From an uncultured Butyrivibrio sp. (GTDB taxonomy: Bacteria > Bacillota > Clostridia > Lachnospirales > Lachnospiraceae): a DNA stretch of 33,680 nt. The DNA lies in NCBI GenBank assembly GCA_947167765.1, contig CAMVJI010000011.1, positions 1-33,680 of the forward strand, read 5' to 3'. Below the pieces are notes generated by a model that saw nothing but the letters and a program-made list of their open reading frames with translations, ran no database searches and was not told the origin of the DNA. Shown here in pieces: positions 1 through 17,986 of this stretch (positions are counted from its first letter, which is position 1; every line of letters starts with the position of its first letter). The translations under genes and the position numbers were made by a program.

Positions 1-1
1 A

Positions 2-358
2 CTTGCCGTAATGGAAAAGAAAGCAACTGATATCGGAAATATGCAGATGAATCAGCTGTCAGAGATGAATAAGAACATGGATCAGGCATCAAAGGCTGAT
101 GCTGAAGAACAGAAGAGAGCAGAAAAATTAGAAGAGCAGCGTGATAAGAAGCGTGCTGAAAAGAGAGAACAGCTTGGGGAGCTTCAGGATAAGATTGCAG
201 AGAGTACAGTTTCTGTGGATGGTGCTGAAGTTACAGTTGTTTCAGCACCTGATACTAAGACAGGGGAAGTGCATTTGGATGAAGTTATTGCTCCAACCAG
301 TGCAGCTGAAGTAAAAACTTCAAGTGCTGGTTCAGAGACTGTTGATGTGAAAGTTTGA
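2..358 (+). CDS. Hypothetical charged coiled-coil protein, 5' end outside the window
   Basis: The frame is open to the left edge; an ATG at 11 is in frame but has no ribosome-binding site visible, so this is read as the C-terminal part of a longer gene. The visible 118 codons hold a Lys/Glu/Gln/Arg-rich helix (about residues 15-65 of the visible part) of coiled-coil character, then a Val/Ser/Thr/Ala-rich tail. There is no membrane segment or recognised domain. It ends 17 bp before the next gene and shares its strand, so it probably belongs to the same transcription unit and to the same set of polar, signal-less proteins that fills the first 9 kb. Function unknown. Confidence 0.6.
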   Translation, partial: LAVMEKKATDIGNMQMNQLSEMNKNMDQASKADAEEQKRAEKLEEQRDKKRAEKREQLGELQDKIAESTVSVDGAEVTVVSAPDTKTGEVHLDEVIAPTSAAEVKTSSAGSETVDVKV

Positions 359-375
359 TGATATGGAGGTTAATG

Positions 376-1056
376 ATGAGTATGAGTATTACAAGTAATT
401 ATGGAAACTATGGCTATTACAACAATTTTATAAAAGAAAATGAGAGCGGTTCGGTGCAAGCTGAATCGAAAAAACCGATTCAGGCACCTATCGCAGGGGC
501 ATTACCGACACAGAGCACAGAACGCTCTGTGGGTCCTGCTCCCCAGGCGGCTGTATATGAAAAAAAGTCTGATGATAGCAGTAATAAGGCTGCTTATGAA
601 ATCGCCAAGAAATCTCCTGCAGACAGAGCAGCTATTGTTCAGCAGATGAAAGCTGCAGAGGAGCAGCAGAGAAAACAGCTGATGGCTATAGTCCAGAAAA
701 CTCTACAGGGACAAGTAGGTGCCTATGGTAAGGCTACCGGAAACAACATGTGGCAACAGCTTGCAGGCGGTAATGTCAAGGTGGATGCAGCTACTAGAGC
801 ACAGGCACAGAAGGACATTTCGGAAGACGGATACTATGGTGTAAAGCAGACATCCCAGAGGTTATTTGACTTTGCTCAGGCTCTTGCCGGAGATGATGTA
901 GACAAGATGAAAGAGATGCAGAAAGCCATGGAAAAGGGATTCAAGCAGGCTACAAAGACCTGGGGACGTGAACTTCCAGCTATATGTAAAGAGACTATGA
1001 ATGCAGCAAATAAGCTTTTTGAGGATTACTATTCGTCTAAAGAACAAGTTGGTTGA
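376..1056 (+). CDS. Hypothetical protein with DUF5610-like C-terminal domain
   Basis: 226 residues from ATG 376, chosen because GGAGG at 365-369 lies 6 nt upstream; ATG 373 and 382 are alternatives. The N-terminus is rich in Ser, Asn, Gly and Tyr (SNYGNYGYYNNF), followed by a Gln/Lys helix and a C-terminal domain (about 130-220) containing DGYYGVKQTSQRLFDFA and KGFKQATKTWGRELP. From memory this resembles DUF5610, a domain of unknown function found in flagellated bacteria; that assignment was not tested. There is no signal peptide or membrane helix. It follows the first gene by 17 bp and is probably co-transcribed. Its N-terminus resembles those of the products at 5884 and 7085, hinting at a shared targeting signal (inference). 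Confidence 0.75.
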   Translation: MSMSITSNYGNYGYYNNFIKENESGSVQAESKKPIQAPIAGALPTQSTERSVGPAPQAAVYEKKSDDSSNKAAYEIAKKSPADRAAIVQQMKAAEEQQRKQLMAIVQKTLQGQVGAYGKATGNNMWQQLAGGNVKVDAATRAQAQKDISEDGYYGVKQTSQRLFDFAQALAGDDVDKMKEMQKAMEKGFKQATKTWGRELPAICKETMNAANKLFEDYYSSKEQVG

Positions 1057-1180
1057 TCAAGGAAGGGGCTGAGATTATGAAGATTAAGGTAAAGATCTTG
1101 AAGATTTGACAAAACAGTTTTCCAGAAAATTGTCAGAGAAAATGGTTGTGAATCCAAATGGCAGTTTTTGATGTCAGGGC

Positions 1181-1209
1181 TTGACTAAAAGTTATTTTTT
1201 GCCGATATA
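1181..1209 (+). promoter_or_regulatory. Candidate promoter for the 1277 gene
   Basis: TTGACT at 1181-1186 is followed after 17 bp by GATATA at 1204-1209. The overlapping GCCGATAT at 1201-1208 closely matches the -10 element of flagellar sigma-28/SigD promoters (GCCGATAA), but no properly spaced TAAA -35 is present. Either a sigma-A promoter or a sigma-28-like one is possible. The 1057-1276 gap contains no convincing gene. Confidence 0.4.
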
Positions 1210-1276
1210 CAAATAGAAAACCATAATTATGCATGATACATGATAGTGTCAGATTTATCGCAGGTGGAGGTGCTTT

Positions 1277-2320
1277 ATGAGGATACAAAAGAACACGGAT
1301 GTTCAAATAAATCCTTTTCAAAATCAGGATAATGTCAGGACTGCCGCAGGTGCGGGAAAAACCGCTCATAAGAGTGGTAATCTGTCCTCAGTATCCGGGG
1401 CTAATCTTAAGGGTGAAAGTCTTGTTCAGCAGAGGCAGGGCCTTGCAAGAAAGCAGGCACTTAAGGTTGTGTCAGATGCTTTTGGCGGCGAGAAGAAGCT
1501 GGATGCTCAGATGCAGGGCATTAAAGATGAAATAAAGCGTCTTCAGGATGTGATAAATGAAAAGACTGCTGATACGATAGAGAATGATGCCAGGTTAAAA
1601 GAACTTCAGGAACAATACGGAATTGATTCTGACGGTGAGGAGAGCAAGGAACTTTCAAAGCTTGCATTCAAAGCAAATCATTCCAAAGAAGGACTCTCGG
1701 ATGAGGAAAAGAGTCAGATGTCCGAGTACCAGCAGCAGGCGCTGTACTATGTTGCAAAGAATCAGCAGAATGCTCTCGATATTGATCAGGCAAAGGCTCA
1801 GCAGGCAGGTAATGTCCAGGGTTATGCCGACATGAAGAGGGAACGCGCTAAGTCTCAGGATATGCTTAAGGCACAGGATGCAGCTGAAGAGATTATGGAT
1901 GCAGCAAACGGTGAGGCGATAGCTCTTTTGACGCAGGAAGCAGTTGAGCATGTAGATGAAGAGCAGAAAGAGCGCGAGGAAGAGGCCAAAGAGGCAGCGG
2001 AAAAGAAGAAAGAGGAGAAGAAGGAAGAAGCAAAGAAGCTTGAAAAAGAGGCAATGCAGCAGGAAATGATAGAGAATATCAAACAGCACGCTGCAGAGAC
2101 CCAGCGAACCAGCGCTGATACTAAGCGGGCCGTTGCAAGAAGAGAACGAGCAGAAGCTGAAAGTATGGGAGCAGAGGATGCCCAGAAGACTATTATTTCC
2201 GAAGGTACATCCATGGAGGATACGCAGAATGCTGTTAATTCCGAAATCACAAATATCCTCAATAAGCTGAGCCTCCTTTCAAGTGATGTTAAAGGTAGTA
2301 CCGTAGATAGTCAGATATAA
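1277..2320 (+). CDS. Hypothetical long alpha-helical coiled-coil protein
   Basis: 347 residues; the ATG at 1277 is fixed by GGAGG at 1266-1270, 6 nt upstream. There is no signal peptide, transmembrane segment or Cys. The N-terminal 45 residues are Asn/Gln/Gly/Ser-rich and look disordered. Most of the rest is predicted helical, with a Glu/Lys tract at about 215-265 (KEREEEAKEAAEKKKEEKKE) and a terminal segment rich in Ala, Thr and Arg. No catalytic domain is recognisable. Composition and position place it with the other signal-less proteins of the locus. A structural, adaptor or chaperone-like role would fit, but nothing in the sequence decides this. Confidence 0.75.
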   Translation: MRIQKNTDVQINPFQNQDNVRTAAGAGKTAHKSGNLSSVSGANLKGESLVQQRQGLARKQALKVVSDAFGGEKKLDAQMQGIKDEIKRLQDVINEKTADTIENDARLKELQEQYGIDSDGEESKELSKLAFKANHSKEGLSDEEKSQMSEYQQQALYYVAKNQQNALDIDQAKAQQAGNVQGYADMKRERAKSQDMLKAQDAAEEIMDAANGEAIALLTQEAVEHVDEEQKEREEEAKEAAEKKKEEKKEEAKKLEKEAMQQEMIENIKQHAAETQRTSADTKRAVARRERAEAESMGAEDAQKTIISEGTSMEDTQNAVNSEITNILNKLSLLSSDVKGSTVDSQI

Positions 2321-2323
2321 AAA

Positions 2324-2391
2324 GTATTCATGACATAAATGATGCTATTGGTGACATTCCTGTTATCTGACAGAGGGATTGCGTCGATAAG
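2324..2391 (+). promoter_or_regulatory. LytTR-type direct-repeat promoter (site A)
   Basis: Half-sites GTATTCATGACA (2324-2335) and CTATTGGTGACA (2345-2356) are 21 bp apart, two turns of the helix on one face. A -10-like GATAAG lies at 2386-2391, 30 bp after the last base of the second repeat. No good -35 is visible, as expected for an activator-dependent promoter. The next gene starts at 2436. The same arrangement recurs at 3351 and 5692. Paired direct repeats of this spacing just upstream of the promoter are typical of VirR/AgrA-class LytTR regulators; one is encoded at 3509. Confidence 0.6.
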
Positions 2392-2435
2392 AGAGCAGAG
2401 GAGTCTTTAGATCATGTACACGGAGGTAAATGATT

Positions 2436-3344
2436 ATGACCGGAATAGAAATTACTTCAGTAAATAGGCAGGTAAAAGACATTAGCCAGGAAATATATGC
2501 TGCCAAGTTACAGCGTGACGAGCAGCAGGCAAAGTCTGTAAACGAAAATAAGAACAGTGGTTTACAAAACGCTATTGCCGGTAAGCTTAGTGACAAATCT
2601 GGTGTAAACACTGCGTTCTCGGATACAGCTGCAACCTTGTCCATTTCTGCTTTAGGTGCTGAAGAATTGGAAAAAGTGAGAGATTCCTGGAATAATCATC
2701 CTGTCAGCGCTTTGTATAAAGACATATCCGCAGCAAAAAACGCAGAGGGCTTATACAAAATTGGCGGTGCTTCTTTTAATGATGAGGAGTTATCTGCAGC
2801 ACGGGATCTGATAACAGGTGTCGGAAGTAAGCTAAAGAATGGATATCTCAGCTACAGAGATTACGCCAAGATGGAAGTGGCTCAGAAGGTCGTGGATGAT
2901 CTGGCATCCAAAAACTTTCGCGAAGACCAGGCAAAAGTAATCAGCCGGGCTATGAAAGACTTTAATGACAATCTGCTAAATACGCAGTATAGGATGCTGT
3001 CAAATAAGGAAATCAGGGCCAATGACGATACTTTATCAGGCAAGTATTTTGGCATTGAAGTTCATGTACCTGAAGAAGTAAGAAAATCAGTTAATGAGTA
3101 TGCAAGTACAGATATCGCAACAGATCGGGATCTTATTGCAAACCTCCGTGACAACATTAGAAATACAGATATTTCAAATAAAAACGCTGTGAAAAAGTTA
3201 ATGGCTTCTTATGAAGATATGATTAAGCCCGCTTATAATGCTCAGTACCCGGCTCAGCTAAAGTCAAATGTTGATGATGCTATTTCCAGAGATGAGAATG
3301 ATCTGATGAAACTGATTGACTTCTCGGATAAATGGAAGAGATAG
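2436..3344 (+). CDS. Hypothetical helical protein downstream of LytTR-type site A
   Basis: 302 residues from ATG 2436, 9 nt after GGAGG (2422-2426); ATG 2430 is only 3 nt away and less likely, but it would add just two residues. The protein is soluble, has no signal peptide or membrane helix, and is mostly helical. The N-terminal 40 residues are rich in Gln, Lys and Asn; a central part (about 75-190) carries sequences such as VSALYKDISAA and GYLSYRDYAKMEVAQKVVDD; the C-terminus has repeated Asp/Asn-Leu helices. No family is recognised. It is preceded by a 21-bp-period repeat pair shared with two other promoters of the locus, so it is probably a target of the LytTR regulator next door. Confidence 0.75.
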   Translation: MTGIEITSVNRQVKDISQEIYAAKLQRDEQQAKSVNENKNSGLQNAIAGKLSDKSGVNTAFSDTAATLSISALGAEELEKVRDSWNNHPVSALYKDISAAKNAEGLYKIGGASFNDEELSAARDLITGVGSKLKNGYLSYRDYAKMEVAQKVVDDLASKNFREDQAKVISRAMKDFNDNLLNTQYRMLSNKEIRANDDTLSGKYFGIEVHVPEEVRKSVNEYASTDIATDRDLIANLRDNIRNTDISNKNAVKKLMASYEDMIKPAYNAQYPAQLKSNVDDAISRDENDLMKLIDFSDKWKR

Positions 3345-3350
3345 TAATGT

Positions 3351-3419
3351 CCATTCGTTACAATAATCCGTCCATTCATGACATGAATATATAAAGAGTA
3401 TTATTCATGATGATATTAT
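3351..3419 (+). promoter_or_regulatory. LytTR-type direct-repeat promoter (site B), probable autoregulatory site
   Basis: CCATTCGTTACA (3351-3362) and CCATTCATGACA (3372-3383) form a 21-bp-period direct repeat starting 7 bp after the preceding stop codon. TATTAT at 3414-3419 sits where a -10 is expected (31 bp after the second repeat). A third, degenerate half-site TTATTCATGATG (3401-3412) lies just before the -10. The next gene is the LytTR regulator itself, so positive autoregulation is likely (inference). Confidence 0.62.
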
Positions 3420-3440
3420 AAATACATAGTTTAAAGGGAA

Positions 3441-3475
3441 AATGCTTACATGGATGTCCGTGCTAAGCATTTTTT
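3441..3475 (+). terminator. Intrinsic terminator in the leader of the two-component operon
   Basis: AATGCTTA (3441-3448) pairs with TAAGCATT (3464-3471), with an inner CATGG/CCGTG stem, ATGT loop and one bulged C, followed by a T run ending at 3475. It lies downstream of the predicted site B promoter and 33 bp before the regulator start codon. It could therefore attenuate the operon or end a short leader RNA, not only terminate the upstream gene. Confidence 0.75.
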
Positions 3476-3508
3476 CGTTATTGGCCAAGTGAGAATTGAG
3501 GGTAATGT

Positions 3509-4273
3509 ATGACAAGGTACAGGATAGCAATTTGCGATGATGAAGAGGATGTAAGGAGTCTTTTTCATGATTGGGTAAGCAAGGCAAAATATGATGTGGA
3601 TGTTAAAGAGTACTCAGGCGGAGATGAACTCATAAAGGATATAGATGCAGGCGCCGGGATAGATATTCTTTTTCTTGATATAGCTATGGGCAAAAATGAC
3701 GGAATAGAAACAGCAAAAGAACTTGGAAGACGCGTCGAGGCAAGTGGCAAAAGTATGAGAGCATCAAGACCACTTATCATTTTTGTTACAGGTATTCCGG
3801 ACAGGATGGGAGATGCATTTGGTGTTAAGGCATTTGATTATCTGCTTAAGCCGGTTTCACAGGCAGCATTTGAAAGTGAACTTCACAGAGCAATTGAGGA
3901 GCTTCAGAGATTGGATGCCCAGCTCATATGTGAGACAAAATATCAAAATGATGAAGACAAGTTCATATCTATACAATCAGGTAAAGGGACAATAAATATA
4001 AAGCTTCGGGATATTTTATATATTGAGAGTTCAGGACGAAAAGCAATTGTCCATTTACCGGGAATAAAGCATGAAGTGTACCGGCAGATGAATGACTTTG
4101 AGGATGAACTAGGGAACAGTTTTTTTAGGGTTCACAGAGGATATCTGGTTAATATGAAGCATATAAAAGGCTACTCCAGATCAGAGGTACAGGTTGATAA
4201 TGGGGATGCACTTATAATGTCAAAATACAAATACGCTGATTTTATAAGGGCTTACATGGAGTTTATATCCTGA
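3509..4273 (+). CDS. AgrA/VirR-like response regulator with LytTR DNA-binding domain
   Basis: 254 residues. The N-terminal receiver domain (about 4-125) has the acidic pair in ICDDEED, the phospho-acceptor Asp57 in LFLDIAMG and the conserved Lys in the KPVS motif. The C-terminal LytTR domain (about 150-250) contains ILYIESSGRKAIVHL, FFRVHRGYLVNMKHI and a final YKYADFIRAYMEF. LytTR proteins bind direct repeats as dimers, unlike winged-helix regulators. The ATG at 3509 follows a GAGGGTAA ribosome-binding site. It lies 17 bp upstream of its kinase gene and just downstream of a repeat pair that fits a LytTR binding site. Direct targets inferred here are its own operon and the genes at 2436 and 5884. 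Confidence 0.93.
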   Translation: MTRYRIAICDDEEDVRSLFHDWVSKAKYDVDVKEYSGGDELIKDIDAGAGIDILFLDIAMGKNDGIETAKELGRRVEASGKSMRASRPLIIFVTGIPDRMGDAFGVKAFDYLLKPVSQAAFESELHRAIEELQRLDAQLICETKYQNDEDKFISIQSGKGTINIKLRDILYIESSGRKAIVHLPGIKHEVYRQMNDFEDELGNSFFRVHRGYLVNMKHIKGYSRSEVQVDNGDALIMSKYKYADFIRAYMEFIS

Positions 4274-4290
4274 CGATTGTAGGAGGAAGT

Positions 4291-5691
4291 ATGACAGAGG
4301 AAAATATCAGAATTATGGAACAAATCTACGGAGTATCTATGATACTAATCCGTGGTCTGTTCTTTGGAGTATTTGCAGATCTTTTTATAAATAAAGAGTC
4401 ACTTAGCAGATCAAAAAATATTGTATTGTCAGTGATAATCACAATCGAAGGGATAGTGTTGTTTGCGATTCCATATTCTACAAAAGGTCTGTACAGTATA
4501 ATAAGCCTTCTGACTATAATTGCAGTGTTTTATTTTTATAATCAAAAGGTATTACCACATATCATTTTTGTATTCTTTCTGTGGCAAAACGTGTTTTACG
4601 TATGGCATTTGATAAACTTTGCCGTTTTTAACAGTGTTTCTGATTATGTTACCGCATCCATAGATTATTCCAGGGAAGGCGCCGTGGAATATCTATGGAA
4701 CTGGATGTTTATACTGATGATTTTGCAGGTTATGTTTTTTGCTGTTTTGCTATTTCTGGAATATTACGTTACCAGGAAAATATGTACAGTCAAGTATGAT
4801 ATGTCATGGACTGAAGCGTTATATTTATCTATATTTTCCGCGGTGTCATACATTATCTGTTACATAATTGTAGAAGTTATGGTTGTGCCGCTTGATAAAG
4901 AAGTTTTTGTATTGCTGGACGAGAAACAGGATCTTAGATTTACCCTGCCAATCCTGGCTGTGCTGATTTTTATCGGGGAGATGTCTGCAATTGCCACATG
5001 GCAGCGCTACAGAAAGCTTAAAGAGGAGGACCTGCAACTCCAGGAGCAGCTTCAGGAGCAGGAGTTTATCAGGAAAAAGATTGAATACACTGAAAAGTAC
5101 CATGAACGTATAAGGACACTTCGTCATGACATGGCAGGCAAACTCATGATCCTTAAGAGCTTTCTGGAAAAAGACAGGATAGGCGATGCGAAGGAATTCC
5201 TTGGGGAAATGGACATTGAGTTAAGCTCAGAAGCTATGCAGTATGCGACAAATAATCCGGTTACGGATGCTGTCATAAATGAGGCTGCGGCCCAGGCAGG
5301 TAGCATGAACTGCGATTTTAAGTCAGAATTTCTTTTCCCTGATGACAATGGTATCAGTGCTTTGGATATGGGGATTATTCTTAATAATCTTATAGATAAT
5401 GCTTTGGATGGAGTACTAACCGTGGCGGAGGATGATAGGTTTATCAGACTTATTGGGGAACAAAAGGATAACTTTTACTTGATAAAAATAGAGAATTCGT
5501 TTGATGGAAAATTGAAGCGTGCTTCTGATAATAGCATCATCAGTACAAAGAAAATGGATTCTGACGCAGATAAGCACGGGCTGGGGTTAAAGAGCGTCAT
5601 GGGAATCGCAGATAAATATCTTGGAGCTGTGGATATTAATTCAGAAAACAAGGTTTTTAAGGTTAAGGTAATGTTGCAGAAGAAAAACTGA
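4291..5691 (+). CDS. AgrC-like sensor histidine kinase (GHKL type)
   Basis: 466 residues. The first 230 or so form a polytopic membrane sensor with about six hydrophobic segments, then a coiled coil (LKEEDLQLQEQLQEQEF) and the cytoplasmic kinase. The phospho-acceptor His is in RTLRHDMAGKL (near residue 280), the N box is NNLIDNALDGV, and the G box is HGLGLKSV near the C-terminus. This is the AgrC/ComD/VirS architecture, in which the membrane domain usually senses a peptide. The start follows AGGAGG by a few bases and lies 17 bp after the regulator gene. No agrB or agrD gene is seen in the window, so the signal is either encoded elsewhere or is not an AgrD-type peptide. Confidence 0.92.
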   Translation: MTEENIRIMEQIYGVSMILIRGLFFGVFADLFINKESLSRSKNIVLSVIITIEGIVLFAIPYSTKGLYSIISLLTIIAVFYFYNQKVLPHIIFVFFLWQNVFYVWHLINFAVFNSVSDYVTASIDYSREGAVEYLWNWMFILMILQVMFFAVLLFLEYYVTRKICTVKYDMSWTEALYLSIFSAVSYIICYIIVEVMVVPLDKEVFVLLDEKQDLRFTLPILAVLIFIGEMSAIATWQRYRKLKEEDLQLQEQLQEQEFIRKKIEYTEKYHERIRTLRHDMAGKLMILKSFLEKDRIGDAKEFLGEMDIELSSEAMQYATNNPVTDAVINEAAAQAGSMNCDFKSEFLFPDDNGISALDMGIILNNLIDNALDGVLTVAEDDRFIRLIGEQKDNFYLIKIENSFDGKLKRASDNSIISTKKMDSDADKHGLGLKSVMGIADKYLGAVDINSENKVFKVKVMLQKKN

Positions 5692-5759
5692 CTATTCATT
5701 ACATAAAAAGGTCCGTTCGTGTCAAAGCTATTTAACTGCCTCCGGTCATAGACGATACT
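5692..5759 (+). promoter_or_regulatory. LytTR-type direct-repeat promoter (site C)
   Basis: CTATTCATTACA (5692-5703) and CCGTTCGTGTCA (5713-5724) are again 21 bp apart. A -10-like GATACT is at 5754-5759, 30 bp after the second repeat, with a weak TTTAAC at 5731-5736 as -35 (17-bp spacer). It begins immediately after the kinase stop codon and would drive the 5884 gene with a leader of roughly 115 nt containing two stem-loops. Confidence 0.6.
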
Positions 5760-5784
5760 TGATATGGAACAGAAACTACCTGCT

Positions 5785-5860
5785 GCACTAAACTCGACAG
5801 TACCTTGTTAAGTGCACAGGTATGGTTCGCACTAGACTCGGGAAGAACCTCGTCAAGTGC
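5785..5860 (+). repeat. Tandem stem-loop repeats in the leader of the 5884 gene
   Basis: Two related 31-32-nt units lie 44 bp apart (5785-5815 and 5829-5860). Each forms GCACT-A-RAC / GTY-A-AGTGC with an internal A.A mismatch and a 13-14-nt loop that begins TCG and contains ACCT. The inner three pairs differ between copies in a compensatory way: AAC/GTT in the first and GAC/GTC in the second. They end 7 bp before the ribosome-binding site AGGAGGTG (5868-5875). A structured RNA leader or protein-binding element is likely. Confidence 0.6.
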
Positions 5861-5883
5861 TCTACTCAGGAGGTGAACAGCAT

Positions 5884-6867
5884 ATGAAGATAGCAAGTAG
5901 TGATGTTTATTCTAATTCAAATTACAGCTATCAAAAGGATTTGAGCAGCGGCGGTGCAGGGACAGGCGGTTTTTTTGCCGGAATAGTAGAAAAACATGTA
6001 GAAAAGGAGAAAACTGATTATCAGGCAACAGGAAATATTAAAACTGTAGATGGAAGGGAGATAAATGTTGATGTGGATGTAAGTATGGCTCGAAAAAAGG
6101 AGCATGAAACATTTATCCCTATATCGTCACCATTGGATAATCTATTTGATCCTTTGATAATCAACACAGGAACTCAAACAGCTTCTCTAAGCGATAAGAA
6201 ATTTAAATTTGATCTTGATGCGGACGGCAAGCAGGATGAAATATCAATGACCAAGTCCGGGAGTGGATTCCTTGTTCTTGATAAGAATGGAGACGGCAAG
6301 GTAAATGACGGTACTGAATTGTTTGGAGTAAAGAGCGGTGATGGATTTAAGGATCTTGCCAATTACGACTCAGATGGTAATGGCTGGATTGATGAAAATG
6401 ATGAAGTCTTTGATAAGCTCAAAGTTTGGAGTAAATCTGATGATGGAAAAGATGATCTTAGGACGTTAAAGGAATCTGGTGTTGGAGCTATCTTCCTTGG
6501 ATCAGAAAACACAGAATTTACTCTTGATGGCGCTGATGGTGCTTTAGATGGGAAAGTGAGAAAGACAGGAATCTTTCTAAAGGAGGATGGGACTGCAGGG
6601 ACCATCCAGCACGTTGATCTAGCCATTAAAGGCCGTGAATCAGAACTTATGAGTGCTGCTGAAAAGCTGGATGAAGTCCTTGAGAAAATGCGCAGTGAGA
6701 GCTCTCAAAGGAGCAGGCGAAATAACAACAATGATAAAGCAAGACGCCGGGCTCAGAGAGCAGCGAGACAGAAGAAACAGCTTGAGGATTATCAGAAAAG
6801 GCAGGATCTTAATAAAGAGCTGACAGAAAAGGCTATCGAGCATAGAAAAATGTTGTATGGCACTTAA
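5884..6867 (+). CDS. Hypothetical protein with EF-hand-like calcium-binding (VCBS/ELFG-type) module
   Basis: 327 residues from ATG 5884, 8 nt after AGGAGGTG; an upstream in-frame start at 5857 lies before this site and is rejected. The N-terminus (SDVYSNSNYSYQKDLSSGG) is Ser/Asn/Tyr-rich without a hydrophobic signal. The central module (about 112-225) has Asp-rich loops DLDADGKQDE, DKNGDGKVNDGTELFG and DSDGNGWIDENDEVFDKLKVW, followed by ESGVGAIFLG. This order is familiar from calcium-binding domains of Gram-negative RTX-like and VCBS-annotated proteins. The C-terminus is an Arg/Lys/Gln coiled coil. The protein probably binds Ca2+, so it is likely to act outside the cell, yet the export route is not evident. 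It is preceded by LytTR-type site C and ends before a strong terminator. Confidence 0.8.
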   Translation: MKIASSDVYSNSNYSYQKDLSSGGAGTGGFFAGIVEKHVEKEKTDYQATGNIKTVDGREINVDVDVSMARKKEHETFIPISSPLDNLFDPLIINTGTQTASLSDKKFKFDLDADGKQDEISMTKSGSGFLVLDKNGDGKVNDGTELFGVKSGDGFKDLANYDSDGNGWIDENDEVFDKLKVWSKSDDGKDDLRTLKESGVGAIFLGSENTEFTLDGADGALDGKVRKTGIFLKEDGTAGTIQHVDLAIKGRESELMSAAEKLDEVLEKMRSESSQRSRRNNNNDKARRRAQRAARQKKQLEDYQKRQDLNKELTEKAIEHRKMLYGT

Positions 6868-6916
6868 GGAGCAAAACACTTTTTCCGATAATATATAGAA
6901 AGGTTAGGATGGAACT

Positions 6917-6962
6917 GCCGGATATCAATGGATTGATAAATCTAATGATATTCGGCTTTTTT
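6917..6962 (+). terminator. Intrinsic terminator after the 5884 gene
   Basis: GCCGGATATCA (6917-6927) pairs with TGATATTCGGC (6946-6956), one G.T pair included, followed by TTTTTT (6957-6962). It closes the transcription unit that starts at site C. Confidence 0.88.
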
Positions 6963-7005
6963 ATGTTAAGAAGGAAGGTGAAAGTAAAGAGCAAAGCGCG
7001 CAACT

Positions 7006-7070
7006 GATAATCAATTAACCACTCGGCCCTTTCCGGAGAGTGGAGCGGTTCTGACTGACAGATGAACCGC
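7006..7070 (+). promoter_or_regulatory. Candidate -10 and two leader stem-loops before the 7085 gene
   Basis: GATAAT at 7006-7011 is a possible -10. It is followed by CCACT-CGG/CCG-AGTGG (7019-7043, with GAG bulged on the 3' side) and a perfect 7-bp hairpin GCGGTTC/GAACCGC (7045-7051 with 7064-7070). The second hairpin ends just before the ribosome-binding site AAAGGA. Two tandem hairpins also precede the 5884 gene, although the sequences differ. No LytTR-type repeat was found here. Confidence 0.4.
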
Positions 7071-7084
7071 AGAAAGGAACACTT

Positions 7085-8833
7085 ATGTCAAATACAATAA
7101 CAAACGGAAACTATTATTACTCACAGAGTGCATTTGTACAGAGTGCCCACTATTATTCGAATCAGACTTTCGGAAACAATGATTTCCAGAGTACTGTCAT
7201 CAAAAAAGATGAAGATTCCTCTGAAGTAGTAGATGCCCTGGCAAAAGAAGAGCCTGCAAAGAAAGGATATACACGAGTTATAACAGCAAATGTGTGGAAC
7301 TCAGGAATGACATCAACGCAACTTGCTGATGGCAAAACCGCTTATTCATATCAGGGAGTAATGCAGAAGTTTGAGATAAGGATTGATGTGATGGGAGACA
7401 GCAGGAAATATACTGCAACCGGAACAGATGAAAACGGCAATGAGTTCTCAAAAGAGATCGATCCTTATAAAGTGAATCCGACAGATTCGGATTTTACAGA
7501 ATTTGCCGCATTGTGCTCGTATATCCGTGACACTGAGGGTATTGCTGATGAAGCTATGCAGGCAGTAGATGGAGTAGCCCCTTATGATATCTTTGAGAAA
7601 AAGAATTATCTGTCAGAGCTGAATGGCTCCATAAACAACTTTCAGATGGTGGGAGTAAGTACACTTGGAGCAGAGCAGCTTCTTTCTCACATAAACAGGC
7701 TTATGGAAGTAATGATGACTTCCGGCGTGGGGACAGGCATTTCTCCTGAGCCTGTAGAAAATGCAACAACATTTGCAGGTGCTAAGGTATGGGGAGATAC
7801 AGGCAGCTTTGGTATGTTTTCAGGGATAAGATTTCAGGCTGTCAGCTATCAGGGGGCACTTTCAATTGATGGGGCACAAAAACCAGTAGAAATAAGGGAT
7901 AATGAAGATTTAGATGAAGTTGTTACACCTCTTGGTGGAATGAGTTCCATACCTGTTGGTAATATGAGCTATGTCATGACTGCATCGGAAGTTTTTAAGC
8001 CGGGTCTGGATAATCCGATCGTCAGAGTACATGTAGGAGGCAAAGATATCGATGTTAACATAAATGAAGTGGATCCAAAGAATGCCTCAGCTGTTGAGAT
8101 GTTTGCATGCTGTCAGTATGCAGATGCTCATGATACAGGTACCGGATATACTTTTGGGAGCTACAGTGTGTTAAAAGGGGTCACTGATCCACTTGGGAAA
8201 TCAGAGTATACTTCACTTGATGAGGCTATTTCCAAAAAGAGCAATTGGAACGATGCAATTTCTGGTTCGAAGGCTTCCTTTACAAAAGAGCAGACTGGTG
8301 AAAAATATGATGCGTCAATCCTTTTGAAAATGCTGGAAGAGACTGCAGGCCTATTTGCTTCGCAGAGTGGCGATAAAGATCTTGGAGAGCTGACGGATGA
8401 AGAATGGGAAAAACTCCTTGCAGATACAGATAAAGCGATAGATGAGGCAAAGGAGACTGCTATAGATAATAAGCAGCAGGAAGAGACAAAAGCAGAACAC
8501 GTAAAGCGGCTCATAGCTGAGAACTATGAAAACGGTAAGATACAGAAAGCTATGGACGGATATGAGTTTATGAAGATGCAGGGTGAGTTAATTGAGAGTA
8601 ACGTTGAGAAGCTCAGGCAGAATCAGAAGACTACCCGTGAAAGACTTCTTGAACAGGATCCCAATGCTGCCAGCAAATGGTATATGTATGATGGTAGCAG
8701 TAAACGCTATTCCTTTGATGAGTTCTGTAAGTTCATGGACGCTAAGGACGCCGAGATGCGTGCCAATGCTCCAGAATGGAGAAATCCATATCTTGAGGTG
8801 GCAAACTATTACTTGAACAAAAGGAAGGTATGA
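7085..8833 (+). CDS. Large hypothetical protein with a duplicated internal motif
   Basis: 582 residues; ATG 7085 follows AAAGGA at a normal distance. The N-terminus (NGNYYYSQSAFVQSAHYYS) is Tyr/Ser/Asn-rich, like other products of this locus, and there is no signal peptide or membrane helix. Two parts of the protein look duplicated: EIDPYKVNPTDSDFTEFAAL (near 124) and NINEVDPKNASAVEMFAC (near 324) share an E-x-DP...F/EMFA-C-Y pattern and each ends a beta-rich stretch. From about 390 the protein becomes Glu/Lys/Asp-rich and helical, with a final segment containing NAASKWYMYDGSSKRYSF. No family is recognised with confidence. It lies in its own unit between two terminators, followed at once by the 8840 gene. 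Confidence 0.8.
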   Translation: MSNTITNGNYYYSQSAFVQSAHYYSNQTFGNNDFQSTVIKKDEDSSEVVDALAKEEPAKKGYTRVITANVWNSGMTSTQLADGKTAYSYQGVMQKFEIRIDVMGDSRKYTATGTDENGNEFSKEIDPYKVNPTDSDFTEFAALCSYIRDTEGIADEAMQAVDGVAPYDIFEKKNYLSELNGSINNFQMVGVSTLGAEQLLSHINRLMEVMMTSGVGTGISPEPVENATTFAGAKVWGDTGSFGMFSGIRFQAVSYQGALSIDGAQKPVEIRDNEDLDEVVTPLGGMSSIPVGNMSYVMTASEVFKPGLDNPIVRVHVGGKDIDVNINEVDPKNASAVEMFACCQYADAHDTGTGYTFGSYSVLKGVTDPLGKSEYTSLDEAISKKSNWNDAISGSKASFTKEQTGEKYDASILLKMLEETAGLFASQSGDKDLGELTDEEWEKLLADTDKAIDEAKETAIDNKQQEETKAEHVKRLIAENYENGKIQKAMDGYEFMKMQGELIESNVEKLRQNQKTTRERLLEQDPNAASKWYMYDGSSKRYSFDEFCKFMDAKDAEMRANAPEWRNPYLEVANYYLNKRKV

Positions 8834-8839
8834 TTCAAA

Positions 8840-9433
8840 GTGAAAAAGTACGCACTAAACAAGAAAACAATTATTATCTCTATTTGCTGTGGAGTGATAA
8901 TTGCAATTATAGGTCTTGTTATTAATGCATTTAATCGACAGTATAATCCAAATGGAATCAGCAGTCTGTTAAATATAACTATTGATAAGAATCAGCCACA
9001 AGAATATATTGGCGAACTTGATGGCTATGAAATATATGTCAAAAATCTTAAAACAGATTATTCTCAAGTTGAGGATATCAGAAAGAGGCATGAAGAAATT
9101 GGGAATTTGACTGGAGATGAGAAACTATCAGGTTTTTCAAAAGAAGATCATATTATTCCAATAATAACTCTTTGCATCTGTTTTGATAAGAAAAAATGGG
9201 TTGCACCAAGATCTCTTTTCGATATGTTTGGGAAAGTTCATCCAAGGATAGCGGAGTACGTTGATGACTATAGACTCAATCTGATATCTCCCGACGAAAT
9301 AGAAGGTTTTGAGAAGTTTTCATCAGAACTTGGCGCAATCATGGAGTTCATACACATTTCAGATGACAAGGAAAAGCTTCGTGATATAATTAAGGCAACA
9401 GGAAAAAACTCTACAAGAAATATGGCATTATAG
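8840..9433 (+). CDS. Membrane-anchored protein resembling the C-terminal part of Rpn-family nucleases/transposases
   Basis: 197 residues from GTG 8840, 6 bp after the preceding stop, with AAGGAAGG (8821-8828) as the likely ribosome-binding site. Residues 10-30 form one transmembrane helix (IIISICCGVIIAIIGLVINAF). From about residue 80 the sequence follows the post-nuclease part of Rpn/TIGR01784-type proteins in order: GDEKLSGFSKEDHIIPIITL, KKWVAPRSLFDMF, YVDDYRLNLISPDE and EFIHISDDKEKL. Such proteins are normally near 300 residues with an N-terminal PD-(D/E)XK nuclease domain; here that domain is absent and a membrane anchor replaces it. It may be a domesticated remnant. It is probably co-transcribed with the gene at 7085. 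Confidence 0.75.
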   Translation: MKKYALNKKTIIISICCGVIIAIIGLVINAFNRQYNPNGISSLLNITIDKNQPQEYIGELDGYEIYVKNLKTDYSQVEDIRKRHEEIGNLTGDEKLSGFSKEDHIIPIITLCICFDKKKWVAPRSLFDMFGKVHPRIAEYVDDYRLNLISPDEIEGFEKFSSELGAIMEFIHISDDKEKLRDIIKATGKNSTRNMAL

Positions 9434-9456
9434 ATTGATATGTAATTGCAACATCA

Positions 9457-9489
9457 ATCCGGACAGGAAATAATCCTGTCCGGATTTTT
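9457..9489 (+). terminator. Intrinsic terminator between the 8840 gene and bcp
   Basis: ATCCGGACAGGA (9457-9468) pairs perfectly with TCCTGTCCGGAT (9474-9485) around a 5-nt loop, and the following Ts run to 9489. It separates the locus of hypothetical proteins from the peroxide-defence operon. Confidence 0.92.
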
Positions 9490-9509
9490 AAAAAAGGAGA
9501 GAAACAGCT

Positions 9510-9962
9510 ATGTTGGAAGTTGGAACAAAGGCACCTGCATTTGAACTGCCTGATCAGAACGGAGTAATGCACTCTTTGGAAGAGTACAGGGGCAAGAAGG
9601 TAATACTGTACTTTTATCCAAAGGATAACACATCAGGATGTACCAAGCAGGCTTGCGGTTTTTCTGAGAGATATCCCCAATTTACAGAGAAGGGTGCAGT
9701 GGTACTTGGAGTAAGCAAAGATACTGTAGCTTCCCACAAGAAGTTTGAAGAAAAGTATGGTCTGGCATTTACCCTGCTTGCTGATCCGGAGCGCAAGGTA
9801 ATAGAGGCGTACGATGTTTGGAAAGAAAAGAAGAACTATGGGAAAGTATCCATGGGTGTTGTCAGGACAACATACCTTATTGATGAGGATGGTATTATCA
9901 TAAGAGCAAATGATAAGGTTAAGGCTGCTGAGGATCCAGAAAAGATGCTGGGAGAACTTTAA
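9510..9962 (+). CDS. bcp: Thioredoxin-dependent peroxiredoxin, Bcp/PrxQ type
   Basis: 150 residues, full family length. It reduces hydrogen peroxide and organic hydroperoxides with thioredoxin as electron donor, in the cytoplasm. The thioredoxin fold begins GTKAPAFELPDQNG. The peroxidatic Cys44 lies in TSGCT, and Cys49 is in the position of the resolving Cys of atypical two-Cys Bcp enzymes. The FYPKDNTSGCTKQACGF block is characteristic. The start follows AAGGAG. The TAA stop overlaps the ATG of yaaA (TAATG), which implies translational coupling and a joint role in peroxide defence. Confidence 0.96.
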   Translation: MLEVGTKAPAFELPDQNGVMHSLEEYRGKKVILYFYPKDNTSGCTKQACGFSERYPQFTEKGAVVLGVSKDTVASHKKFEEKYGLAFTLLADPERKVIEAYDVWKEKKNYGKVSMGVVRTTYLIDEDGIIIRANDKVKAAEDPEKMLGEL

Positions 9963-16304: not shown

Positions 16305-17930
16305 CTATTGCAAAAAATTCAAAACACCCTGGTTCGTCTGGTTTGCTTGCGCAAGGATAGATTGTCCTGCCTGAGCTAATATGTTTTCATTTGAAAAACG
16401 GACCATCTCAGTGGCCATATTAGTGTCACGAATTAAAGATTCGGCAGCTTGAGTATTCTCTACAGTGTTTCCTTCCCTTTTGACAGTATGTTCCAACCTG
16501 TTCTGCTGTGCACCAATATCGCTCCGCATTCTCGAAACAATATTCAAAGCTCCTTTGGCGGATTCTATGGTGTCACGGGCAAAATCACCAGTCAATACAC
16601 TAACACCTTTTATTCCAAGAACTTCCGTGTCCATATATTCAAATTCAAGCCACATCCCGTCATCAGGTTCTGCTCCAGACTGTATCCAGAATTTGTTTTT
16701 ATTTTTGATGTCATCTTCAGGTTCATCTTCAGGTTCATCATCAGGTTCTGGCTCGTTCTTTTCAAACAGGCTCATGTATGTATATACAATGTCTTCAGTG
16801 TTTATATAAGCAGCTGCAGTAATGGTATCACCATAATCTGGTTTCATTGACTTTATTAGATCATATGTCTTACTTCCAGTAATCCCTGAATCTATCAAAA
16901 TACTGTATGCTGAATTAAGAAACATACATGCACTATTCCTAACTCTATATGCATTCTGATCTCTGAATGCGTAACTAAAATACATCATTCCTGCTGCCGA
17001 ACCAACAGCTACATTATTGACACCATAGTCACCGTGCTCAGCTATCCATCTTTGATTTCCTGAAATGATACACGCTTGGTGATACTCGCTTAATGCATCA
17101 TAGGCATTATAGTAGGATATTTGAGAACTCCCCATAGTAAGATATCTTTTTCCTTCTTCCATGTATTGCTCGTAATCTGGATTTGGGCAGTATTCATAAA
17201 ATGCTTCGCAATTTTTTAGTATTGTTTCCCTATTGGAAAATAGATTGTTTTTTACATCATCATTCCAACTGTAAATTCTTACTCCGTCCCAATCGGATAA
17301 TTGAAAAGCGTTAAGCATTATAACCGAATTGCTCAAAGAAGTAATAAAAGTATTCGCGTCTTTTTGTGATAAGATTTGCCCATTGCTCAAAGTAATAGCG
17401 CTATCTACAGTTCTTAATGAGCCAGAAAGAAGTTCTTGTAAAGCAATATCGTATGTTATTTCTCCTGGCTCCGGCTCTGGCTCTGGTTCTGGTTCAGGCT
17501 CCGCTTCCTGGAGCTTATGTCCAAATATTAAATGCTCATTAAAAGTAGTTGTATCCGAAACTCTATCTATTTCTTTAAGAATTTGATTTATCTCAGCTTG
17601 AATAGCTTGCCTATCATTGATATCATTTGTATCATTTGAAGCCTTAACCGCTAATTCCGTGATTCTATGCAACATTCCGCTTACTTCGTCTAATGCTCCA
17701 TCGGCAACCTGAAGCAATGAAATTCCATCTTGAGTATTGGCAATGCCTTGATTAAGCCCTCTAATCTGTCTCCTCATCTTTTCTGATATCGCGAGACCGG
17801 CAGCATCATCGGCTGCTCTGTTAATTTTATAGCCGGATGATAGCTTCTCTGAGGATTTAGCAGTAATGCCAGTAGTAATATTTAGTTGACGATTGGCATT
17901 CCTTGCAGCCAGGTTGTGCGAAATAACCAT
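16305..17930 (-). CDS. Flagellin with a large unrecognised domain inserted between Glu/Pro hinges
   Basis: 541 residues from ATG 17930, 8 nt after AGG at 17941-17939. Residues 1-140 are a typical flagellin D0/D1 N-terminus (HNLAARNANRQLN, SSGYKINRAADDAAGLAISE). Residues 144-155 are six Glu-Pro pairs. Residues 157-392 match no flagellin region known to me and are rich in Tyr, Asn and Ser. Residues 393-407 form a second acidic Pro hinge (EPEPDDEPEDEPEDD). The D1/D0 C-terminus (408-541) is intact and ends QANQTNQGVLNFLQ. Both assembly ends are kept, so the insert should be displayed on the filament surface. No HExxH is present, which excludes the flagellinolysin type. A weak sigma-28-like promoter (CTAA at 17993-17990, TTTCGATA at 17974-17967) lies upstream. 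Confidence 0.93.
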   Translation of the reverse strand: MVISHNLAARNANRQLNITTGITAKSSEKLSSGYKINRAADDAAGLAISEKMRRQIRGLNQGIANTQDGISLLQVADGALDEVSGMLHRITELAVKASNDTNDINDRQAIQAEINQILKEIDRVSDTTTFNEHLIFGHKLQEAEPEPEPEPEPEPGEITYDIALQELLSGSLRTVDSAITLSNGQILSQKDANTFITSLSNSVIMLNAFQLSDWDGVRIYSWNDDVKNNLFSNRETILKNCEAFYEYCPNPDYEQYMEEGKRYLTMGSSQISYYNAYDALSEYHQACIISGNQRWIAEHGDYGVNNVAVGSAAGMMYFSYAFRDQNAYRVRNSACMFLNSAYSILIDSGITGSKTYDLIKSMKPDYGDTITAAAYINTEDIVYTYMSLFEKNEPEPDDEPEDEPEDDIKNKNKFWIQSGAEPDDGMWLEFEYMDTEVLGIKGVSVLTGDFARDTIESAKGALNIVSRMRSDIGAQQNRLEHTVKREGNTVENTQAAESLIRDTNMATEMVRFSNENILAQAGQSILAQANQTNQGVLNFLQ

Positions 17931-17986
17931 GCTCATCACCTATTTCAAATAATATCTCAATATGTATATCGAAAGAAAAAAGTAGA

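Follow-up and report, generated by a model that had tools for sequence, protein, structure and literature searches.

We analyzed a stretch of 33,680 nucleotides from an uncultured Butyrivibrio sp. (hereafter the window), which is contig C11 (CAMVJI010000011.1) of a metagenome-assembled genome (MAG) of 2.95 Mb in 310 contigs, 79% complete. The analysis concerns a response regulator with a LytTR domain, the adjacent histidine kinase, and three paired direct repeats, named sites A, B and C, each followed by a putative promoter. The nearest named relatives of this response regulator are from Butyrivibrio. The features of the locus are as follows.

1277-2320, plus strand: P2, a conserved, unassigned protein, with its stop codon 3 bp upstream of site A.
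2324-2356, plus strand: site A, paired LytTR direct repeat with half-sites at 2324-2335 and 2345-2356.
2383-2390, plus strand: GTCGATAA, the sigma-28-type -10 box of promoter A, whose -35 is weak; sigma-28 matrix score 8.9; the same box occurs in flagellins.
2430-3344, plus strand: P3, an unassigned protein and predicted target of A.
3351-3383, plus strand: site B, paired LytTR direct repeat with half-sites at 3351-3362 and 3372-3383, kept in relatives.
3411-3419, plus strand: TG-A-TATTAT, an extended -10 of the housekeeping kind in promoter B, as read from the sequence and from relatives.
3438-3475, plus strand: hairpin and T-run in the regulator operon leader, a possible attenuator or operator.
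3509-4273, plus strand: response regulator with receiver and LytTR domains (Pfam LytTR, 1e-18, 67.8 bits; Response_reg, 1.8e-13, 51 bits; both above cut-off).
4291-5691, plus strand: histidine kinase with a GHKL ATPase domain (HATPase_c_5, 1.5e-22) and about 6 N-terminal membrane segments in a hydropathy scan.
5692-5724, plus strand: site C, paired LytTR direct repeat with half-sites at 5692-5703 and 5713-5724, abutting the kinase stop codon and kept in relatives.
5732-5758, plus strand: sigma-28-type promoter C, with TTAA (5732-5735), 15 bp and GACGATAC (5751-5758); matrix score 10.4; one flagellin carries GACGATAC.
5884-6867, plus strand: EF4, predicted target of C, resembling the FrpC Ca2+-dependent self-processing module, with Asp-Pro at residues 89-90.
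6864-6891, plus strand: strong sigma-28-like promoter between EF4 and P5, without LytTR repeats; matrix score 17.1.
7085-8833, plus strand: P5, an unassigned protein encoded by the next gene 3' of EF4.

In the receiver domain of the regulator, residues D10, D11, D57 and T94 are invariant in 10 of 10 aligned sequences. AgrB and AgrD signal genes were not found among the window proteins scanned, in which small peptides were not sought.

The original prediction described six half-sites and attributed them to a local LytTR regulon. All six are present at the predicted coordinates, with 1, 1, 0, 0, 0 and 1 mismatches to CYRTTCRTKACA. The 21-bp period is common to the three pairs, and the -10-like hexamers (GATAAG at 2386, TATTAT at 3414 and GATACT at 5754) begin 30-31 bp past the second half-site, as had been claimed. 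Searching the window for the pair pattern with up to 3 mismatches returned exactly 3 places, compared with none in 100 dinucleotide shuffles. A slightly shortened pair pattern gave 10 places in the MAG at up to 3 mismatches, and those with at most 1 mismatch were A, B and C only; its reversed control reached 8 places at the same threshold, and the weaker matches are therefore regarded as background. The counts in the window and in the MAG are also partly circular, because the motif was derived from the same sites. Less circular tests are provided by two properties read from the sequences, namely conservation beside orthologous regulators at 61-69% identity and spacing specificity. In the regulator loci, 25 distinct half-site pairs displayed the observed spacing (a 10-bp gap between 11-mers); gaps of 4, 18 and 28 bp were found once each, and no pair was found at any other gap within 0-30 bp.

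According to the available excerpts of two papers, LytTR sites consist of 9-bp repeats separated by a 12-bp spacer, i.e. with a 21-bp period (PMC2766830), and the half-site consensus is WMMGTTNRK (PMC8826819). The half-sites starting at 2324, 2345, 3351, 3372, 5692 and 5713 differ from this consensus at 3, 3, 1, 1, 2 and 0 positions, only one of the six being a full match. The departure that recurs, in five half-sites, is an A in place of the G of the GTT core. A distinct binding specificity had been proposed for the motif. It does differ from the excerpted consensus, but a 21-bp period is usual among sites of this family, and the motif itself is a consensus variant. Judged by sequence, the repeats are a variant of the LytTR family site and the regulator is a member of the family.

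The association between repeats and regulator was assessed in 79 genomes of the genus. Near-full-length relatives of the regulator, with at least 60% identity, were found at 24 places in 22 of these genomes, and fragments in 2 more. With site classes assigned by eye, a B- or C-type pair (at most 2 mismatches) was present in 24 of the 24 genomes containing the regulator or a fragment, as compared with 2 of the 55 genomes without it. Both exceptions correspond to broken contigs: one ends 75 bp past B (G010) and the other starts 56 bp before C (G022), and these broken ends fall where the regulator is expected. When divergent pairs before the EF4-like genes of two other genomes (G015 and G091) were counted as C-type, the second proportion rose from 2 to 4 of the 55 genomes. 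Two further matches in G017 were neither B-type nor C-type. Carriers of the locus include culturable, non-pathogenic Butyrivibrio, for example B. proteoclasticus P18 (L012) and strain CB08 (L020). The locus is best explained as a local LytTR regulon. This reading is well supported for B and C, where we consider it very probable; for A it is less firm, if still likely.

Locus L019 lies on a contig titled Oribacterium. Its regulator has 69% identity and is near the Butyrivibrio versions of L017 and L021, indicating that the contig is mislabelled or that the locus was transferred.

Site A carries less weight because it is also conserved in genomes without a close regulator. Eight A-type sites were found in seven such genomes, beside P2 at 84-94% identity, and these P2-A modules mostly contain GCCGAAAG or GCTGAAAG boxes. 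The eight sites weigh against the assignment of A to the local regulator, and would fit a separate P2-A-P3 module in which another LytTR protein uses A as its operator, with B and C belonging to the local regulator. However, A-like repeats with GTCGATAA or GCCGATAT boxes also occur in loci that do contain the regulator (the window, L017, L019 and L021), and a P2 orthologue has a LytTR/sigma-28 promoter of its own in L018. We thus hold a separate module to be unlikely. The persistence of A in genomes without the close regulator is likely due to another LytTR protein of similar specificity.

The three promoters had been presented as a single class. This was not borne out, as two kinds can be distinguished: a housekeeping extended -10 promoter at B, and sigma-28-type -10 boxes at A and C. 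When relatives were aligned on the second half-site, B promoters displayed a TG-n-TATRAT-like extended -10, and A and C of the window carried GTCGATAA and GACGATAC. A sigma-28 matrix was trained on the upstream regions of flgM and flagellin genes of the genus (60 sequences yielding 47 distinct promoters, the others being duplicates or failing the filter). In these training promoters, T[AT]AA, a 15-bp spacer and NNCGATAN recur, and single flagellins have exactly GTCGATAA or GACGATAC. The B. fibrisolvens sigma-28 consensus, TAAA-N16-17-MCGATAa in the excerpt of PMC3720852, agrees with the matrix pattern. Set against the pattern TWAA, about 15 bp, NNCGATAN, promoter C reads TTAA-N15-GACGATAC, with the repeats ending 7 bp upstream of the TTAA; promoter A has a good -10 and a weak -35. 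The sigma-28 gene (TIGR02479 above cut-off) is present in the MAG (G000:C220:2844-3509) and in 74 of the 79 genomes.

The matrix was applied to 76 distinct LytTR-like segments, which are not independent since many are close relatives. A score of 7.9 was reached by 24 of them, all with a -10 starting 26 or 27 bp past the repeats although 19 offsets were tried. By class, these were 12 of 13 C-type, 4 of 11 A-type, 0 of 17 B-type and 8 of 35 other segments. Among 277,952 background positions, 0.027% reached a score of 8. Searching the 79 genomes for the repeats followed by CGATA at the observed distance (up to 3 mismatches) gave 62 places, whereas the reversed pattern gave 3. The match ends in an exact CGATA at 39 of the 62 places, and the others include A-type GCCGAAA and look-alikes.

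The layout of repeats and CGATA box recurs before different genes: P3 (window and L017), the P2 orthologue (L018:1921), a FliD-like gene and EF4 (site C), and three further short genes (L018:14888, L129:10837 and L129:12290). This favors a regulon over one inherited segment. The promoters of more distant regulators in G030 and G091 (38% and 35% identity) themselves carry the layout, and a P5-like gene of G091 has a pair with 3 mismatches, together with TCCGATAT. EF4-like genes of G091 and G015 (identities of 49% and 52% across some 215 residues) are preceded by pairs with 1 and 0 mismatches, respectively, located far from any close regulator (5136-5167 of L234 and 3665-3696 of L235, reverse strand of the locus). 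At the sigma-28 offset, these genes display GCCGAGAT in G091 and TCCGAAAC in G015. Both boxes keep CCGA without likeness to TATAAT, which favors sigma-28 over the housekeeping factor.

Besides the relatedness of the segments scored, several observations count against the sigma-28 assignment. The scores of A and C (8.9 and 10.4) are both under that of the weakest training promoter (12.1), the -35 of A being poor. Seven of the 11 A-type segments lack a good sigma-28 box, and in the regulator loci the pairs at L127 and after EF4 in L135/L136 have none at the offset. In the MAG, the plain pattern TWAA-N16-CCGATAW with up to 1 mismatch was found at 236 places, versus 217 for the reversed control. 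As the plain consensus fails to beat its control, the sigma-28 assignment depends on the matrix together with the constant offset. Exact plain-consensus matches occur at 19 places in the MAG, 5 of them before flgM-, flgL-, flaG- or flagellin-like genes (by eye) and the rest before unrelated open reading frames or none. Moreover, promoter C can be read by eye as a housekeeping promoter (TTTAAC, a 17-bp spacer and GATACT, which matches TATAAT at 4 of 6 positions). The locus could then be an ordinary LytTR regulon, with housekeeping promoters at all three sites and CGATA boxes that are only poor -10s (GATACT, GATAAG) rescued by the activator. LytTR activators are indeed known at imperfect housekeeping promoters, as in the case of the AgrA P2 and P3 spacers (excerpt of PMC4227749). 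However, the C and G before ATA, a sigma-28 trait, persist in each of the 11 representative non-B promoters, the EF4-like genes of G015 and G091 retain CCGA at the offset with no TATAAT-like box, and B provides an example of the form that housekeeping promoters take in this system. We therefore judge this explanation to be distinctly improbable, and direct co-activation of sigma-28 promoters by the regulator to be probable. Finally, A, B and C all lie within 3.4 kb and A is conserved along with its spacer, as might be expected from coincidence or from common inheritance of a segment that has no regulatory role. Such an origin is extremely improbable, however, given the 0 of 100 shuffles, the spacing specificity, the persistence of the repeats beside regulators of 61-69% identity and the same layout before unrelated genes.

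A sigma-70 scan of positions 2200-7200 returned 11 promoter-like sites, versus 15.1 expected, and A, B and C were not among them. On the minus strand of the window, a flagellin gene (16305-17939) has a possible upstream sigma-28 promoter, TAAT-N15-TTCGATAT, by eye. The region matching 6864-6891 of the window holds a LytTR pair in relatives. A second regulator/kinase pair lies directly 3' of EF4 in three loci (L018, 12243-14227; L015, 12288-14269; L129, 5690-7671), with 26-28% identity to the first regulator.

Three types of look-alike pairs were set aside. The CGTTCATGACAAAAATCGTACCGTTTRTGACA pair lies 3' of a different LytTR operon and continues into a terminator-like inverted repeat (L132, 7537-7568; L133, 6919-6950). 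Pairs of the CGTTCATGACAGAGTTTAATCTGTTCATGATA type appear coding-like by eye, and the CGTTCATAACA pairs in G024 (L131) may be part of a different system. On the sigma-28 matrix, no pair of the three types reaches 7.9.

The hairpin and T-run at 3438-3475 lie between promoter B and the regulator, and a similar fold was found in 9 of 10 leaders. The hairpin pattern was detected at 15 places in 14 of the 79 genomes, in every case next to this regulator, and the control matched nowhere. The remaining regulator places, for example L017 and the groups with 61-63% identity, yielded no match to the hairpin pattern. Rfam gave no match in window 1-9600, and a promoter/terminator scan of 2200-7200 did not report the hairpin as a terminator, although its folding is terminator-like. 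The hairpin may be an attenuator or an operator. Its apex, ACATGGATGT, resembles the consensus of CsrA sites. Genes resembling csrA and fliW, named by eye, are present in a flagellar locus (L134). The leader after site C (window 5786-5860; L012 10380-10530) contains two successive stem-loops with similar arms, GCACT...AAGTGC, which are absent from L024.

The family searches agree with the expectation of an undescribed gene set, as none of P1, P2, P3, EF4 and P5 matches a Pfam or NCBIfam family above cut-off. Residues 109-234 of EF4 match the FrpC self-processing module (PDB 6sjw, E 2.2e-9). An Asp-Pro located 19 residues before the matched domain is conserved in 8 of 8 aligned homologues. Among the FrpC features given in the excerpt of PMC7078468, two EF-hand-like loops are clear in EF4; the third loop and one of the two tryptophans are not evident by eye. 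In relatives, the first gene 3' of C encodes a FliD-like protein that matches Pfam FliD_C. This gene is missing in the window (5857-5884), where the leader runs straight into EF4. The structure model of the FliD-like protein was mediocre (mean predicted local distance difference test score, pLDDT, of 55), and Foldseek gave neither a match at E<=0.001 nor any FliD in the 50 rows listed. In a second look with VIA-align, FliD structures came top, at a Z within chance reach of helical bundles. As the structure comparison is weak, the FliD-like assignment is carried by the Pfam match. For P3, the structure model was unusable (mean pLDDT 43). By their similarities, the predicted targets look flagellar or exported.

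The sites, their spacing, their conservation and their association with the regulator are observed directly, as are the constant CGATA offset and the protein similarities, and we infer binding, phosphorylation, activation, the choice of sigma factor and export in the following model. The kinase (4291-5691) would take up a signal and phosphorylate the regulator (3509-4273), and a LytTR dimer of the regulator would bind the repeat pairs that immediately precede the promoters. The regulator would activate its own operon at B from the housekeeping extended -10 promoter, creating a positive feedback, and the leader hairpin might exert a second control on this operon. At C, and probably at A, it would help RNA polymerase carrying sigma-28 (FliA/SigD) to start at flagellar-class promoters. 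The genes behind A and C would then be made only when free sigma-28 and the kinase signal are present together. Taken as a whole, this chain from kinase to LytTR regulator, with autoactivation at B and sigma-28 co-activation at C (probably A), is the model that we favor with some reserve.

More tentatively, the locus might act as a two-signal gate, in which a LytTR regulator working on sigma-28 polymerase would allow genus-specific exports through the flagellar channel only when flagella are completed and an outside signal is received; the regulator operon would have a leader attenuator of its own. Equally tentatively, these exports might be small FliD-like caps and Ca2+-triggered self-processing proteins. 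If so, a flagellar sigma factor could serve a signal-dependent gene set that is maybe unrelated to swimming, through a compact arrangement of promoter elements (repeats, 7 bp, TTAA, 15 bp, CGATA box), and the targets would hint at cargo sent through flagella by rumen Butyrivibrio. In the literature searched, seen in excerpts, LytTR activators act at housekeeping-type promoters; among the open-access matches listed, nothing joined LytTR control with a sigma-28 promoter, not even two papers that treat both topics.

Several known systems share features with this locus. The FliD-like product matches the FliD_C family of the FliD cap protein, but differs in size (about 250 residues, of which about 140 form the core). 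EF4 resembles the FrpC module (6sjw) in the matched domain and in the Asp-Pro, whereas no RTX protein context was seen around EF4. Late flagellar sigma-28 (FliA/SigD) promoters of Butyrivibrio and relatives resemble A and C in TTAA/TAAA, the 15-bp spacer and NNCGATAN; those of the window differ by LytTR repeats directly upstream, a weaker -35 at A and unassigned targets. The LytTR Regulatory Systems HdrRM and BrsRM, as described in the excerpt of PMC6193735, also have direct repeats close to the promoter upstream, and autoregulation. However, they combine a regulator with a membrane inhibitor and no kinase, in contrast to the receiver-bearing regulator and GHKL histidine kinase of the window. 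The AgrA/VirR/ComE/SilA-type regulators are like that of the window in their receiver and LytTR domains, in the 21-bp period (as given in the excerpts), in repeats upstream of the -35 and in a site before their own operon, and the window differs from them by A for G in the core of 5 of 6 half-sites and by 2 of 3 promoters being sigma-28-like.

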